Shown: positions 39,672 to 50,814 of the stretch, one piece after another
Layout: every line of letters begins with the position of its first letter
Position numbering within the stretch: the stretch's first letter is position 1
Assembly: GCF_025574485.1 (NCBI RefSeq)
Contig: NZ_JAOBPO010000003.1
Coordinates: 597,867 to 661,866 of the forward strand
Origin: Kordiimonas aquimaris
GTDB taxonomy: Bacteria; Pseudomonadota; Alphaproteobacteria; Sphingomonadales; Kordiimonadaceae
Direction of reading: 5' to 3'
Length of the DNA: 64,000 nt
The notes under the pieces: model-generated
Databases searched by the model: none
The model's input: only the letters and a program-made list of their open reading frames with translations
What the model was told of the DNA's origin: nothing
Made by a program: the position numbers and the translations under genes

Positions 39672-41924
39672 GTGGTAAATAAAAACACGCTCGACCATTT
39701 TCCGACCAAGGATGATATTCTTGGATTTCTGAAAGATGCCCGTTCAAAAGCTACTAAACGCGAAATTGCACGCGCATTTCAAATTCGCGGGCAGGATAAA
39801 GTTCTGCTAAAAAAACTGCTGCGCGAAATGCTGAACGACGGAATTATTGCCCAAGATGCATCTCGCTCTTTAAGGCCAGCAGAACAGCTATCTGCTGTTC
39901 AGGTCGTTGAGTATGCCGGTGTTGACACACACGGCGACGTGCTTGTCCGGCCAGTGAAATGGGATGGCAGCGGTCCTGCACCAAAAATATTTCTGAGTTC
40001 TGATAAACGCAAAAAAGGGCCAGCGATCGGCGCTGGTGAACGCGCTTTAGCAAAGCTCATTCCGATAAAGAATGATCCGCCGGTTTACCGCGCTCAAATT
40101 CTTAAAGTTTTAAAGCCTGCGCCTCGCGGTATTCTTGGTGTCTTCAAAGGCGGTGAAAACGGTGGTCGCATTCACCCTGTAGACAAGAAAAATCGTGATG
40201 AATACTGGGTAGATAAAGAGGATGTGCGCGGCGCTGTTGATGGCGAGCTCGTTACAGCTGAGCCAGTTCTTAATCGTAGACGTTCTTCAGGGCCCAAACG
40301 GGCACGTGTCAGAGAAGCCCTTGGCGACGTCAGTGCTGCACGTTCAATCAGTATGATCGCAATTCATGCGCATGACATACCCATGGACTTTCCAAATGAT
40401 GTACTAAAAAGTGCTGATCAGGCAAAACCCGTTGACCTAAGCAACCGGGATGATCTGAGAAGTATACCACTCATCACCATAGACCCTGTTGATGCTCGCG
40501 ACCATGATGATGCAATATGGGCCGAGCCTGACTCTGACCCAAAGAACAAAGATGGCTGGCATGCAATTGTTGCTATTGCTGATGTCGCTCACTACGTACA
40601 ATCAGGCAGTGCATTGGACCGCGAAGCAATAAAACGCGGCAATAGCTGCTATTTCCCGGACCGTGTCGTGCCAATGTTGCCAGAGGCATTATCAGCAGGA
40701 CTGTGTAGCCTACAACCCGGAAAAGACCGCGCCTGCATGGCTGTTCACATGTGGTTTGACGCTTACGGAAACAAGATTAGGCATAAATTTGTACGCGGGC
40801 TTATGAATAGTCATGCCAATATTAACTACGCACAGGCTCAGGCAGCACTAGATGGCCTGCCAGACGAAATGACAGAGCCATTACTTAAACCTGTGCTTGC
40901 CCCCCTACTTGGTACATTCAAAGCATTGATGGCAGCGCGTGATAAGCGGGAACCATTGGAACTTGATCTACCTGAAAGAAAAATAGAACTCAGCAAAGAA
41001 GGTTTTGTTAAAGGCATTGTGCTACGCGAACGCCTGGATACACACCGCATCGTTGAAGAGTTTATGATTGCGGCTAATGTTGCTGCTGCAGAAGAGCTGG
41101 AACGAAAACGAGTGCCTGCTATGTACCGGGTACATGAGGAACCGCCGCTCGACAAGCTCGAAAACCTGCGTGAATTTTTATCTACTCTTGATATGAAGTT
41201 AACCAAGGGCGCAGTAATGATGCCTCGCCTCTTCAACGGCATTCTCTCCAAAGTGCGGGAAACAGCTCACGAACAAATGGTTAACCAAGTTGTATTGCGT
41301 TCGCAAACGCAAGCATACTATTCACCAGACAATCAGGGGCATTTTGGCCTTGCTTTGCCCAAGTACGCTCACTTTACATCACCAATTCGACGCTATGCAG
41401 ATTTGTTGGTGCATCGTGGTCTCATAAAGGCGCTTGGGCTCGGCGATGATGGACTAACAGCACCTGAAATTGAAGAGCTTAATGCTATTGGTGAGCAGAT
41501 ATCCAACACAGAAAGACGAGCAATGGCTGCCGAACGCGAATCAACAGATCGCTATATGGCCGCGTATCTTGCTGATCATGTTGGCGATCAATTCATTGGT
41601 CGCATCACTGGCGTAACACGGTTTGGGCTATTTGTTGAACTTGAACCATCCGGCGGTGACGGCCTGATCCCCATTTCAGAAATAGGCAATGATTATTACA
41701 CGCACGACGAAGATCACCACCGCTTGGTCGGCGAACGCTTCGGCGAAGAATTCAAGCTAGGTGACAAACTGGACGTTCGCTTGACCGAGGCGAACAAGTT
41801 TACTGGTGGCTTGAGACTTGAATTGATCGACGACGGAACAAGACCTGGCCACGGACAGCAAAAAAAGTATCATCAGCGGAAACGGGCTGAACAAAGAAAC
41901 CGAGGCAATCGCAAGCGACGATAA
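39672..41924 (+). CDS. rnr: Ribonuclease R
   Basis: RNase R is a 3'-5' exoribonuclease that can degrade structured RNA. The 750-residue protein has an N-terminal helix-turn-helix-like part (KREIARAFQIRGQDKVLLKKLLREM), cold-shock-like domains, and the RNB catalytic core with IDPVDARDHDDAIW (D271, D274, D277, D279, D280 as candidate metal ligands). SFYR-like and YAHFTSPIRRYADLLVHRGL motifs follow, then an S1 domain (about 640-720, GRITGVTRFGLFVEL) and a basic tail. The start is a GTG, with AGG 11 bases upstream. It converges with the Hpt gene after 15 bases without a clear terminator. Confidence 0.95.
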   Translation: MVNKNTLDHFPTKDDILGFLKDARSKATKREIARAFQIRGQDKVLLKKLLREMLNDGIIAQDASRSLRPAEQLSAVQVVEYAGVDTHGDVLVRPVKWDGSGPAPKIFLSSDKRKKGPAIGAGERALAKLIPIKNDPPVYRAQILKVLKPAPRGILGVFKGGENGGRIHPVDKKNRDEYWVDKEDVRGAVDGELVTAEPVLNRRRSSGPKRARVREALGDVSAARSISMIAIHAHDIPMDFPNDVLKSADQAKPVDLSNRDDLRSIPLITIDPVDARDHDDAIWAEPDSDPKNKDGWHAIVAIADVAHYVQSGSALDREAIKRGNSCYFPDRVVPMLPEALSAGLCSLQPGKDRACMAVHMWFDAYGNKIRHKFVRGLMNSHANINYAQAQAALDGLPDEMTEPLLKPVLAPLLGTFKALMAARDKREPLELDLPERKIELSKEGFVKGIVLRERLDTHRIVEEFMIAANVAAAEELERKRVPAMYRVHEEPPLDKLENLREFLSTLDMKLTKGAVMMPRLFNGILSKVRETAHEQMVNQVVLRSQTQAYYSPDNQGHFGLALPKYAHFTSPIRRYADLLVHRGLIKALGLGDDGLTAPEIEELNAIGEQISNTERRAMAAERESTDRYMAAYLADHVGDQFIGRITGVTRFGLFVELEPSGGDGLIPISEIGNDYYTHDEDHHRLVGERFGEEFKLGDKLDVRLTEANKFTGGLRLELIDDGTRPGHGQQKKYHQRKRAEQRNRGNRKRR

Positions 41925-41939
41925 ATACAGATTGCTCCT

Positions 41940-42695
41940 CTATAAAATTCCAAGCTCCATAAATACATCCGCAACATCATCAGCAAAATTTGCACCTTTG
42001 CGAAGCACTGGCACTGTTTTGGGCAAATCTTTGATATCGCCATTCTCGGTCGCCAACAAAGCAACGGGGATACTTTTCGTTGCAGGCATCGCACTTAAAG
42101 CACAAGCAAGGTCTATACCGGATAGTTCAGGCATCACACGGGAAATAATTACAGCATCAGGCTGCATGGACGGTATGAGTTGAAACGCATCCATCGTGCT
42201 TGCAACATTTACCATCCGATAGCCGCATTCCAGCAACTCTCTCGTCACAATCTTGGTGGCTGTTCCTGGTGCCATCACCAACATAACTTCAATATTGGCA
42301 ACTGTAATATCTGCAACTTCAAAGCCTGCCTTATTTGGCAGTTTCCGCATCAGTTTAGATACATCAATATCTTTACCGTACACAAATGCCTCAAGGCACT
42401 CAGCCATTCGGTCTGCAAAAAACTGAATATCACGGCAGATGCTTTCGCTGAGGTCTGTCACATTGAAGAAATAATCTTCAAAACGGTGACACATAACCTT
42501 CAATGCTTTCATTTCAAATGACGCGGCTACACTCTTTAAGGAATGTGCCTCTAAACGCAACGTCGATAAAGCATCAGCAGCGTTTACTGTACCTTGCGTA
42601 TAACATTGCGTCACTTCCTGGATATTTCTGAGGCGGTCTTCCGCAGTGTCAATTGCTTCGGTACGTAACTCATCTAACAAATCCGATTGCATCAT
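41940..42695 (-). CDS. Hpt domain fused to a degenerate receiver domain
   Basis: This 251-residue protein has two parts. The first (about 1-110) reads as a histidine-phosphotransfer four-helix domain, with H51 and K54 in RLEAHSLKSVAASFEM. The second (about 134-250) has receiver strands, but the phosphoacceptor Asp is replaced by S185 (AVIISRVMPELSG), and the acidic pair at the first strand is missing (EVMLVMAPGT); only the MP motif and K233 remain. The receiver is therefore predicted unable to accept phosphate. It lies close to rpmG, pleD and divK but is on its own promoter. A role in passing phosphate to or from DivK/PleD is an inference. Confidence 0.83.
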   Translation of the reverse strand: MMQSDLLDELRTEAIDTAEDRLRNIQEVTQCYTQGTVNAADALSTLRLEAHSLKSVAASFEMKALKVMCHRFEDYFFNVTDLSESICRDIQFFADRMAECLEAFVYGKDIDVSKLMRKLPNKAGFEVADITVANIEVMLVMAPGTATKIVTRELLECGYRMVNVASTMDAFQLIPSMQPDAVIISRVMPELSGIDLACALSAMPATKSIPVALLATENGDIKDLPKTVPVLRKGANFADDVADVFMELGIL

Positions 42696-42813
42696 TATGT
42701 TTTAGCTTTCTACTTACTGCACGAGATAAAGCTTAGTGATGCCATACAAATAGTTACCTGAGAGTTAGCAAAACCGATTTCTCAATAATTTTTTTAAGAT
42801 TCAACAAACATGC

Positions 42814-42900: not shown

Positions 42901-43068
42901 ATGGCAAAGCCGTCCAGCATCAAGATCAAGCTCGTGAGCACAGCGGATACTGGTTATTACTATGTAACTAAAAAGAATCCACGTACTCTGACTGAGAAAA
43001 TGGTCAAGCGTAAGTATGACCCTGTTGTTCGCAAGCACGTAGATTTCAAGGAAGCCAAGATTAAATAA
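42901..43068 (+). CDS. rpmG: 50S ribosomal protein L33
   Basis: L33 is a small protein of the large ribosomal subunit near the E site. The 55 residues [21 protein letters not shown] and [12 protein letters not shown] fit the zinc-free form, without the CxxC pairs found in zinc-binding L33. The ATG at 42901 has GGAG about ten bases upstream; a longer frame to 42814 runs through the promoter and is rejected. A strong terminator follows. Position beside pleD-divK is conserved in relatives. Confidence 0.95.
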
Positions 43069-43154: not shown

Positions 43155-44525
43155 TTAAGAAGCAATAACTACTTTATTGCGACCGCCAGCTTTTGCTTCA
43201 TAAAGTGCTTTATCTGCTTCATTGATGAGCTGCCCCGGTGTTTGACCATCTTTGCTTGTCGCCACTCCAATAGAGACAGTTACCGTTATAGGCCCCTCAG
43301 CCAGACCAACGTCAAACGGGTTGTCACTCATTTCCTGACGTAAACGATCCCCAATCATTGTAGCCCAATCTGTTGGCGTTTCAGGCATCATGACCACAAA
43401 TTCCTCACCGCCATACCGAGCAGCTAAATCAACACCGCGGATATTACGACCGATTCGACTAGCAAACTCTTTTAAAACAAGGTCACCAGCAGCGTGACCA
43501 TATGTATCGTTCACATGCTTAAAGTGATCAATATCCATCATTAGAACCGACAAAGCTTTACCTTGGCTCTGAGCAGTTTGCATACGTGTGTCCAAATGAC
43601 TGGTCAAATAGTGCCGGTTATAAAGCCCCGTTACAGCATCAGTTGTGGCAAGCTGCATTGATAAATGGAAGTTTTCCCATAATTTATCCGCATACCGCTT
43701 GCGCTTTAGCTGTGTCTTAACCCGCGCCAAAAATTCAAGCTTATCCACGGGGCGAACCACATAGTCATTAACACCCATCTCCAACGCACGGACCAATAGT
43801 TTGGTATTACCGTCATCTACCATAACCAAAATCGGTACATGGCGCGTTTCTTCGAAAGATCGAAGCTTGGAACACACACGAAGACCATCAGTGTCGCGCA
43901 TAGTGAGAGAAACAATAATCAGGTCAAAGTTCTTCTCTCTCGCTTTTTCCGCAGCATCATCACCGCCAGGGATAAACTCCAGCTGTCCGACACCCTCAAG
44001 AGCTTTGGCTATACGTTCAAAAACACGTTCTTGCTCATCAACAATAAGAATCGAACCATCAATAGGAGCAGTTACATCAAATGCCACCCCCTCTTCTTCA
44101 TCCCAACCCAGTGACGCGCCGGTTGTTTTGCGGTTACGCAACTCATCCATCATCACTTTCAGACGCACAAGGGAGCGGACACGTGCGAACATCGCTAAGT
44201 CTTGAACCGGTTTCGTCAGAAAATCGTCTGCACCCGCTTCTAGTCCAGCAACACGATCTGATGGTTGATCAAGTGCTGTCACCATAACAACAGGGATATG
44301 CGCTGTAGTAGGGTCAGCCTTAATACGCTTGCATACCTCAAAACCGTCCATGCCCGGCATCATGACATCAAGTAGAATAATATCTGGGTGCTCGCGGCTA
44401 ATAATATCTAACGCCTCCGGACCGCTGTAAGCTGTCAGGACATCAAAATATTCACTTGTAAGCTTGGCTTCTAGTAACTTAACGTTCGGTGGAACATCAT
44501 CTACAACAAGCACGCGTGCTGTCAT
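43155..44525 (-). CDS. pleD: PleD-type response regulator diguanylate cyclase
   Basis: PleD is a phosphorylation-activated c-di-GMP synthase that controls polar development. The 456-residue protein has two receivers and a GGDEF domain. Receiver 1 has D53 in IILLDVMMPGMDG, the Caulobacter position. Receiver 2 is degenerate (IIVSLTMRDTDG, Ser in place of Asp), as in known PleD where it acts as an adaptor. The catalytic loop is GGEEF at 372-376, and the inhibitory RxxD site is R363-GV-D366. Thus it should be feedback-inhibited. It starts six bases after divK in a two-gene operon. Confidence 0.95.
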   Translation of the reverse strand: MTARVLVVDDVPPNVKLLEAKLTSEYFDVLTAYSGPEALDIISREHPDIILLDVMMPGMDGFEVCKRIKADPTTAHIPVVMVTALDQPSDRVAGLEAGADDFLTKPVQDLAMFARVRSLVRLKVMMDELRNRKTTGASLGWDEEEGVAFDVTAPIDGSILIVDEQERVFERIAKALEGVGQLEFIPGGDDAAEKAREKNFDLIIVSLTMRDTDGLRVCSKLRSFEETRHVPILVMVDDGNTKLLVRALEMGVNDYVVRPVDKLEFLARVKTQLKRKRYADKLWENFHLSMQLATTDAVTGLYNRHYLTSHLDTRMQTAQSQGKALSVLMMDIDHFKHVNDTYGHAAGDLVLKEFASRIGRNIRGVDLAARYGGEEFVVMMPETPTDWATMIGDRLRQEMSDNPFDVGLAEGPITVTVSIGVATSKDGQTPGQLINEADKALYEAKAGGRNKVVIAS

Positions 44526-44531
44526 CGTGCA

Positions 44532-44897
44532 TTATCCTGCAAATTGTTTCACGGTTTCCAGAAAGTGCCCGACAGAAATTGGTTTAGCGATATAGGCCTC
44601 ACAACCGCCTTCGCGGATTTTTTCCTCATCGCCTTTCATTGCAAACGCTGTTACGGCAATAACCGGTATCTTTTGCAAGTCTTCATCTTCTTTCAACCAC
44701 TTGGTAACTTCAAGGCCTGAAACTTCAGGTAATTGAATATCCATGAGAATTAAATCGGGCTGATGGCTACGTGCAAGATCAAGAGCGGCCATGCCATCTC
44801 TTGTTTGAATTGTCTCATAATCATGAGCTTCAAGCAGGTCGCAAAATAATTTCATATTCAATTCATTGTCTTCGACAATTAGAATTTTCTTAGCCAT
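44532..44897 (-). CDS. divK: Single-domain response regulator DivK
   Basis: DivK is a stand-alone receiver controlling polarity and CtrA activity in alphaproteobacteria. The 121-residue protein starts [22 protein letters not shown], with the phosphoacceptor Asp53 in [13 protein letters not shown] and K103 in [12 protein letters not shown]. The ATG at 44897 gives the standard N-terminus and the Caulobacter numbering of the Asp; a GTG nine bases upstream is possible. It precedes pleD by six bases, so both should be coexpressed. The partner kinases PleC/DivJ are not in this window. Confidence 0.93.
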
Positions 44898-45109
44898 GGA
44901 ACTCACCCACTCCCAAATTCAAGAACACTAAACGTACCCCCATGCAAATAATAGTCTCGCTTTGCTTACAAACACAAGCCTACACAGTGCACTAAAGCAG
45001 AAAATACCTAACAAACTATTGCATTTACCCATAGCATACTCACAATTATATCTGTTTGTATTCATTTAAGAAATTAGCCAAGCTTATATTTCCATTAGGA
45101 ACCATCATT

Positions 45110-49638: not shown

Positions 49639-50814
49639 GTGATAGCACTTGAGAACTTGCATATTTCTTTTGTGCAATCACTCGAAGAAATAACCGCTTC
49701 AGAATGGGATATGTGCAACACAACGCATAACCCGTTTACCTCATATGCTTTTTTACATGCACTTGAGCAATCTAACAGTGTTGGAGACAGTACAGGTTGG
49801 TCCCCGTACCACATGATCATACGCAGCAGCGAAACCGTTGACGCAACAATCGCAGCATGCATGCCTATGTATTTGAAAGGGCATTCTTACGGCGAATATG
49901 TCTTCGACCATGGCTGGGCGGATGCATATGAAAGAGCTGGTGGTCAATATTATCCTAAATTGCAATCCTGTGCCCCTTTCACACCGGCAACAGGACAACG
50001 GCTACTGATCAATAATAATTGCGCACCAGAACACCATGAGGCACTTAAGTCCGCCCTTTTAGGTGGGCTACAACAAATAACGCAGAAGCTTGGCCTATCA
50101 TCGGCGCACTTAACATTTGTTCCTGAAGATGAAGCAATAACTGCAGAACAAAACGGTTTCCTCATAAGACACGACCAACAATTCCATTGGTACAATCGAG
50201 ATTATGAATCATTTGAATCATTCCTTGCTCAGCTTTCCTCGCGCAAGCGAAAACAAATAAAAAAAGAACGCCGTACCGTACATGAAACGGACATCCAGAT
50301 TGAAACCATTACAGGCCAGGAAATCAATGAAGCTCACTGGGATGCATTCTACGAATTCTACATTGATACTGGCGCGCGCAAATGGGGTCAGCCATATCTT
50401 ACGCGCTCTTTTTTCAGCGCAATTGGCAAAGCAATGCCTGATAAAATTGTTCTTTTCCTATGCAAACGCGCTGACCGCTACATTGCAGGCGCGCTAAACT
50501 TCCTCGGACCAGATACAATTTATGGACGCCAATGGGGCTGCATAGAAGATCATCCGTACCTACACTTCGAAACATGCTATTACCGCGCCATTGAATACGC
50601 TATTAAACATAAATTAAGGCATGTAGAAGCAGGCGCACAAGGAGCGCACAAACTTGCACGCGGATATGAACCAGTGCGTACATTCAGCGCTCATTACATT
50701 CAAAATGACAGTTTTCAGACTGCGGTAGCTCATTTCCTCGAACAAGAACGCGAAGGTATTGCTGGTGAAATCAATTATTTGAGCACCAAAACACCATTCA
50801 AAAAAGACACCTAA
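49639..50814 (+). CDS. FemAB-like (DUF482/PF04339) protein
   Basis: This 391-residue protein matches the DUF482 'peptidoglycan biosynthesis/recognition' group of GNAT-like fold: WDMCNTTHNPFTSYAFLHALEQ, MPMYLKGHSYGEYVFDHGWADAYERAGG, YYPKLQSCAPFTPATGQR, then LSSRKRKQIKKERRTV, KWGQPYLTRSFF, and YRAIEYAIKHKLRHVEAGAQGAHKLARGYEP. Its substrate is unknown; some family members are suspected aminoacyl-tRNA-dependent transferases. The GTG start has ACAGGAAAAT upstream. It overlaps the GNAT gene at 50811 by four bases, tail to tail. Confidence 0.87.
   Translation: MIALENLHISFVQSLEEITASEWDMCNTTHNPFTSYAFLHALEQSNSVGDSTGWSPYHMIIRSSETVDATIAACMPMYLKGHSYGEYVFDHGWADAYERAGGQYYPKLQSCAPFTPATGQRLLINNNCAPEHHEALKSALLGGLQQITQKLGLSSAHLTFVPEDEAITAEQNGFLIRHDQQFHWYNRDYESFESFLAQLSSRKRKQIKKERRTVHETDIQIETITGQEINEAHWDAFYEFYIDTGARKWGQPYLTRSFFSAIGKAMPDKIVLFLCKRADRYIAGALNFLGPDTIYGRQWGCIEDHPYLHFETCYYRAIEYAIKHKLRHVEAGAQGAHKLARGYEPVRTFSAHYIQNDSFQTAVAHFLEQEREGIAGEINYLSTKTPFKKDT

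Follow-up and report, generated by a model that had tools for sequence, protein, structure and literature searches.

The window analysed here, a stretch of 64,000 nucleotides from a Kordiimonas aquimaris contig, carries on its minus strand a gene for a 251-residue protein (41940..42695, with an ATG start and the stop codon within these coordinates) in which an Hpt domain is followed by a receiver-like domain. At 15 bp from its stop codon lies a convergent plus-strand gene for an RNase R-like protein (39672..41924), judged from its sequence to be presumably rnr; on the other side, 205 bp of divergent intergenic DNA separate the Hpt-pseudoreceiver gene from a plus-strand gene (42901..43068) that is presumably rpmG, encoding ribosomal protein L33, as named in the first-pass annotation. 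This divergent gene stands between the Hpt-pseudoreceiver gene and pleD (43155..44525, minus strand), whose product matches NF007135 at 636 bits, over the cut-off, and next to pleD is a divK-type single-receiver gene (44532..44906, minus strand), named from the same annotation and from its place beside pleD. The first-pass annotation had set the gene beside rpmG-pleD-divK: it does adjoin this block, but it lies outside the pleD-divK operon, with rpmG on the opposite strand in between, and has its own promoter.

The N-terminal half of the protein is an Hpt domain by profile and by motif. Residues 9-105 (42381..42671, minus strand), delimited from Pfam, the AlphaFold2 model and conservation, form four helices; residues 9-89 score 41.7 bits against PF01627 in a Pfam search, above the gathering cut-off of 24.6, and the HxxK motif is intact, with the phosphorylatable histidine H51 encoded at 42543-42545 and K54 at 42534-42536 (both minus strand). 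All 18 members of alignment A1 match PF01627 at E 0.1 or better, and residues 7-127 match the P1 domain of CheA3 (3kyj) at Z 16.2 in VIA-align. The C-terminal half, residues 134-251 (41943..42296, minus strand; delimited from Pfam, the model, structure matches and conservation), has the fold of a receiver and lacks its chemistry: Ser185 (42141-42143, minus strand, read from the sequence) occupies the position of the phosphoacceptor Asp, the acidic pocket is replaced by V140-M141-A142-P143, and Ala215 stands in place of the usual receiver Thr. Its Response_reg score (PF00072, 25.4 bits over residues 150-223) falls under the cut-off of 30.2 in the same kind of search, as expected of a degenerate copy. 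Both residue-level claims of the first-pass annotation, an Hpt domain with intact H51 and K54 and a fused receiver with Ser for Asp and no acidic pocket, were therefore borne out.

An AlphaFold2 model computed from an 18-row alignment shows four Hpt helices and then a receiver fold (mean pLDDT 81.9); its pTM is 0.49, so that the placement of the two domains relative to each other is unsure. In Foldseek and VIA-align comparisons, residues 134-250 match receivers with a best VIA Z of 17.5, and DivK and PleD are among the structure matches of this half (VIA Z 16.5 and 16.4). The Kordiimonas model is missing a regular alpha-4 in the pseudoreceiver, and the Thr-to-Lys spacing is 18 residues in this protein vs 22, counted by eye, in the window's DivK and in the first receiver (REC1) of its PleD. 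A loss of alpha-4 throughout the family was rejected, given that 66/88 family rows keep a spacing of 21 residues; the shortening is thus confined to part of the family. From these features, the Kordiimonas protein probably combines a live Hpt with a constitutively dead receiver, and it is predicted to be competent for phosphotransfer.

On its sequence, the protein is a member of an unnamed alphaproteobacterial family. A profile made from 18 sequences finds a match (E 1e-20 or better) in 50 of 387 sampled alphaproteobacterial genomes, the window's own included; this list of 50 was read by hand from the profile search, in which up to 6 candidates were scored per genome, so that absences may be misses. 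Named records of Kordiimonas and its kin supply 13 Kordiimonadales-type loci with relatives at 68-80% identity, and four further named loci, of Rhodospirillales/Magnetovibrio type, encode relatives at 34-37% identity, which shows that the open reading frame is not a chance one. In the relatives search the gene was present at 66-80% identity in 12/12 genomes of the same genus, and neither the window protein nor a Magnetovibrio-type relative had a match when plasmids were searched. Together with the window and 78 further genome regions, the 17 named loci make up 96 loci, of which 88 were aligned; L123, L131, L132 and L133 were left out as duplicates, having profile scores identical to those of named loci, and L059, L094, L113 and L122 as fragments. 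One of these fragments, at a topA-rnr locus of a genome of the same order (L122:6808-7188, G018), is an open reading frame that stops after the Hpt half, with the histidine kept. A search of the open-access literature yielded no paper that we recognised as being about this Hpt-pseudoreceiver family, which may still be in print.

The alignment separates what is constant in the family from what is not. Position 185 is Ser in 66 of the 88 rows, Ala in 12, Asn in 4, Thr in 3 and Gly, Pro or Gln in 1 each; Asp is found in 0/88, and so are acids at both 141 and 142. The Hpt histidine, by comparison, is kept in 54/88 rows and absent from 34/88. An alignment shift does not account for this absence, since only 1/34 His-less rows has a histidine anywhere in columns 48-55. 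On a quick tree made with the columns around H51 excluded, the histidine state changes at least 8 times; the tree carries warnings of long branches that meet and does not distinguish gain from loss, although loss is the natural reading given that the domain is homologous to Hpt. Within the Kordiimonadales clade, 17/17 rows have H51, 17/17 K54 and 17/17 Ser185. Conservation of H51 and Ser185 across orthologues had been named beforehand as a check on the first reading, with a non-conserved H51 counting against it: H51 holds throughout the Kordiimonadales and is missing from more than a third of the wider family, and no row has the receiver Asp.

Which half of the protein is under tighter constraint was gauged from column entropy in 58 representatives, 31 His-bearing and 27 His-less. 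Mean entropy is 1.98 bits in the pseudoreceiver vs 2.26 in the Hpt domain of His-bearing members, and 1.54 vs 2.34 bits in His-less ones, so that the gap between the halves widens once the histidine is gone, with the caveat that the His-less subset may simply be less diverse. Helix 2 of the Hpt, the one with the histidine, varies more in His-less members (2.64 vs 2.09 in His-bearing ones), a rise that helices 1 and 4 do not show. Being the better conserved half, the pseudoreceiver is not a relic, and its interpretation as a stray, decaying tail was rejected.

How much the genomic setting says about function depends on what the same setting looks like when the gene is missing. Across the 13 named Kordiimonadales-type loci, several of which are cut off by a contig end, rpmG and pleD are each found in 13/13, rnr in 12 (not L018), divK in 12 (not L021) and topA in 8. 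Six more groups of loci likewise have the gene between rnr and rpmG (L062/L064, L085, L096, L106/L112, L127 and L117/L119). In all, 26 of the 88 rows were scored as rnr-rpmG loci, with rpmG in 26, rnr in 25 and pleD or divK in 24; these labels were set by hand, and L116, where rpmG is adjacent, rnr has no match and the histidine is present, was scored as elsewhere. One relative, represented by L021 and L131, has about 6.4 kb of extra DNA between rpmG and pleD, the gene still being beside rnr and rpmG. We also inspected 20 PleD loci without the gene in place, 16 from genomes with no family match and 4 from genomes that have the gene elsewhere: 15/20 have rpmG and 9/20 have rnr in the stretch and in the order seen here, with rpmG several kb away in L180 and L184. 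The block is therefore old, the gene lying within it beside rnr, and no functional tie is required to explain why the gene is near pleD-divK. Proximity alone was rejected as proof of function, and the hint that the first-pass annotation had drawn from this setting is weakened; the neighbourhood is compatible with a role towards DivK or PleD and is not evidence for one.

The histidine itself follows the locus in raw counts. H51 and K54 are both present in 26/26 rows at the rnr-rpmG locus, whereas H51 is present in 28/62 rows elsewhere (Fisher p 1.4e-7, kinship ignored). This value overstates the tie, because the tree offers just 2 well-supported independent pairs, for which a sign test is not significant.

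The links to true receivers are few and partly from sister sequences. In two His-bearing members outside the rnr-rpmG locus a canonical receiver is fused C-terminally, giving the order Hpt, dead receiver, live receiver (L110:7803-9152 and L128:7127-8320), a possible Rosetta-stone architecture as read from the sequences. An adjacent receiver gene is found at 3/28 His-bearing loci off the rnr-rpmG locus, on the same strand in L118 and L120 and on the opposite strand in L067, vs 0/34 His-less loci; within two genes the difference is hardly there (4/28 vs 2/34). In L118 and L120 it is a canonical single-receiver gene that precedes the family member on the same strand. These arrangements suggest that true receivers may be the partners with which His-bearing members exchange phosphoryl groups, the dead receiver serving for docking. 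The family members of these two loci (L118:7447-8679 and L120:7623-8865, in genomes G011 and G001 of the window's genus) are second, diverged, His-bearing paralogues, 33-34% identical to the window protein.

The promoters are a more promising lead than the gene order. Upstream of the window's gene, 52 bp from the ATG, lies a CtrA-box-like element, TAAC-N7-TAACTATTT (42748..42767, minus strand). In the intergenic DNA that separates the gene from rpmG, this TAAC direct repeat, with an 11-bp period, is invariant in 14/14 aligned Kordiimonadales promoters, and YATTT follows it in 11/14 rows. With at most one mismatch, TAAC-N7-TAAC is found in 16/17 upstream regions of the Kordiimonadales clade vs 9/215 neighbouring genes; 20 shuffles give 1.0 on average. 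The element shares the geometry of the CtrA site, whose consensus is given as TTAA-N7-TTAA in the cited part of one study (PMC9437464), and departs from it in the initial base of each half; TTAA-N7-TTAA itself, with one mismatch allowed, occurs in 0/17 of the same upstream regions, and the Kordiimonadales element could belong to another regulator. Among His-less members the CtrA consensus, again with at most one mismatch, is present upstream of 17/34 genes vs 27/389 neighbouring genes (Fisher p 5.8e-10, kinship ignored); 20 shuffles give a mean of 4.0 and a maximum of 7, eleven other spacings give 4 to 8, and gene bodies 1/34. His-bearing members outside the Kordiimonadales show a weak or no clear excess at N7 (6/36 vs 33/430 neighbours), and a larger one at N6 (9/36 vs 31/430).

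Scans of the genome and of the window show no excess of such patterns: the longer, CCAT-containing pattern TTAA-N7-TTAACCAT, with at most one mismatch, has 20 sites vs 31 for the reversed control, so that by this crude test the CtrA pattern is not enriched genome-wide; a long TAAC-type pattern has 3 sites vs 5 with at most two mismatches and, with one, only that of the gene itself; and the single exact TTAA-N7-TTAA in the window, at 50603, is at chance level. The ctrA locus of the window's genome has 4 near-consensus TTAA-N7-TTAA sites vs 1.5 expected, a number reached in 11/200 shuffles and so no more than suggestive; three of the four lie upstream of ctrA (L159, 1094-1176), a sign of possible autoregulation at a level only slightly above chance. 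For the family, the promoters hint at control by CtrA.

The distribution of the family fits the same network. PleD (E 1e-80 or better, up to 4 candidates scored per genome) is matched in 45/50 family-bearing vs 132/337 other genomes, and CtrA (E 1e-90 or better, up to 7 candidates) in 46/50 vs 193/337; kinship is ignored in both comparisons, and here too absences may be misses. The window's genome has a CtrA (NF045991, 427 bits, over the cut-off) and a ChpT, encoded by a separate gene at C11:663448. Co-occurrence and CtrA-like boxes both count toward a link with the cell-cycle network in general.

We hypothesize that the family is an accessory adaptor of the CtrA/DivK phosphorelay network, a tentative proposal to which we give somewhat less than an even chance. 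On its best reading, this adaptor would be capable of phosphotransfer in the Kordiimonadales, and certain other lineages would have a double pseudo-protein. The dead receiver would serve as a fixed docking module for the surface of a histidine kinase or phosphotransferase; the Kordiimonas Hpt would take phosphoryl groups from, or give them to, a true receiver in trans, be it DivK, PleD REC1, the receiver of CckA or another one, transfer to DivK or PleD being possible; and production of the protein would be tied to CtrA activity, creating a feedback branch. In His-less lineages binding might be all that the protein does, for instance by keeping a kinase or a phosphotransferase occupied. A more pointed version, in which CtrA induces a modulator of its own phosphorelay, with a dead receiver and a repeatedly His-less Hpt, acting as a live drain in the Kordiimonadales and as a pure brake elsewhere, is rather unlikely as a whole. 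In either form, the pattern across the family and its promoters are more interesting than the place beside pleD-divK. To our knowledge, CckA-ChpT-CtrA control is less well known in Alphaproteobacteria outside the well-studied orders; if CtrA does control the family and the family engages the relay, it would be a missing regulator in lineages such as the Kordiimonadales and Rhodospirillales. The family also offers a natural experiment: the dead receiver is shared, but only some relatives have the Hpt histidine, which allows docking to be separated from phosphotransfer.

The family can be compared with several known systems: (i), stand-alone Hpt proteins and CheA P1 domains share its four-helix bundle, HxxK motif, PF01627 match and fold, but here the Hpt is fused to a dead receiver and often lacks its histidine; (ii), ChpT (PF10090), a phosphotransferase, belongs to the same broad network as that proposed for the family, but no PF10090 match was listed for the window protein at E up to 10, with HMMER filters dropping most matches above E of about 0.1, and since the genome has its own ChpT as well, the identification of the window protein as ChpT was rejected; (iii), the second receiver of PleD is degenerate too, but it is part of a diguanylate cyclase and has no Hpt. 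In the window's PleD (43155-44525), the phosphoacceptor of this second receiver is apparently replaced by Ser, judged by eye from DLIIVSLTMRD, as it is in the Hpt-pseudoreceiver protein. One survey of two-component proteins lists in a table 312 proteins of a type RRHPt, with one receiver and one HPt (PMC4558063); the present family differs in being Hpt-first and in having a dead receiver, the state of the RRHPt receivers being unstated in the cited part of that survey. Hpt domains are often missed according to a section of an Azospirillum two-component gene survey (PMC4618731), and a comparative study of Alphaproteobacteria suggests, in the part cited here, that some lineages could use other phosphotransferases in place of ChpT (PMC2877005).

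Among the alternatives, the protein could be an ordinary orphan Hpt that serves a hybrid kinase encoded elsewhere, the decayed receiver being a structural tail and the position between rnr and pleD-divK incidental. The existence of the gene order without the gene agrees with this, as does the lack of any kinase gene recurring beside the family gene across contexts, where the neighbours, judged from their sequences, look mostly like housekeeping genes. The window's genome is also rich in receivers (53 matches to the PleD model), and it encodes proteins that match hybrid-kinase models, although below the cut-off. A receiver half that is the better conserved one, and most so where the histidine is gone, is nevertheless a misfit with a decayed tail, and an orphan Hpt does not explain CtrA-like promoter boxes; we consider this alternative unlikely.

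The family could instead act by binding only, like FixT or Osp, as an anti-kinase that inhibits CckA or another kinase under CtrA, with H51 having a minor or regulatory part in the Kordiimonadales. The receiver Asp missing from every row, the recurrent absence of the histidine and the fact that one half of the His-less genes have CtrA-like boxes are all in keeping with such a brake. This would not be unprecedented: Osp of Rhodobacter sphaeroides is described, in the cited part of the study, as a receiver-like inhibitor of CckA whose expression is activated by CtrA, which is short of pocket acids and for which phosphorylation was not seen (PMC9430884). Osp is, however, a single domain with no Hpt, has an Asp at 51, as told from the D51N construct in the strain table, and was reported by its authors, in the same part of the paper, only in Rhodobacterales (PMC9430884). 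That H51 and K54 are kept together in all rows of the Kordiimonadales clade argues for catalysis in this order. We consider a brake throughout the family unlikely.

The interpretation given in the first-pass annotation is supported in part. Taken as a third alternative, in its specific form, it has the Hpt feeding or draining DivK, PleD REC1 or both, with the pseudoreceiver docking onto PleD or DivK. Sequence similarity gives it some footing: PleD REC1 is the only other match to the family profile in the searched part of the window (E 1e-8, 41.6 bits), and 18/18 A1 members match the NCBIfam PleD model, below the cut-off and with a best E of 1.2e-11, but PleD is one of many receiver models matched. 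Exceptions exist among the rnr-rpmG loci: L106 and L112 lie at topA-rnr-rpmG with no match to pleD or divK in the 16 kb covered, and the genome search likewise gives no PleD match for the genomes they come from (G373 and G243). The TAAC repeat of the family promoters is present in 0/13 divK upstream regions of Kordiimonadales, where TTAA-N7-TTAA is found in 3/13 (L015, L019 and L020). With the histidine motif intact at every rnr-rpmG locus, pleD or divK nearby in most and PleD in most family-bearing genomes on one side, and these exceptions, the promoter difference and a gene order that exists without the gene on the other, we regard a relay dedicated to DivK, PleD or both as unlikely and, by a small margin, the least probable of the readings considered. 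As a separate observation on divK, a promoter-like element of the type CTTGT...CTATTAT is conserved upstream of this gene in the 13 Kordiimonadales loci.
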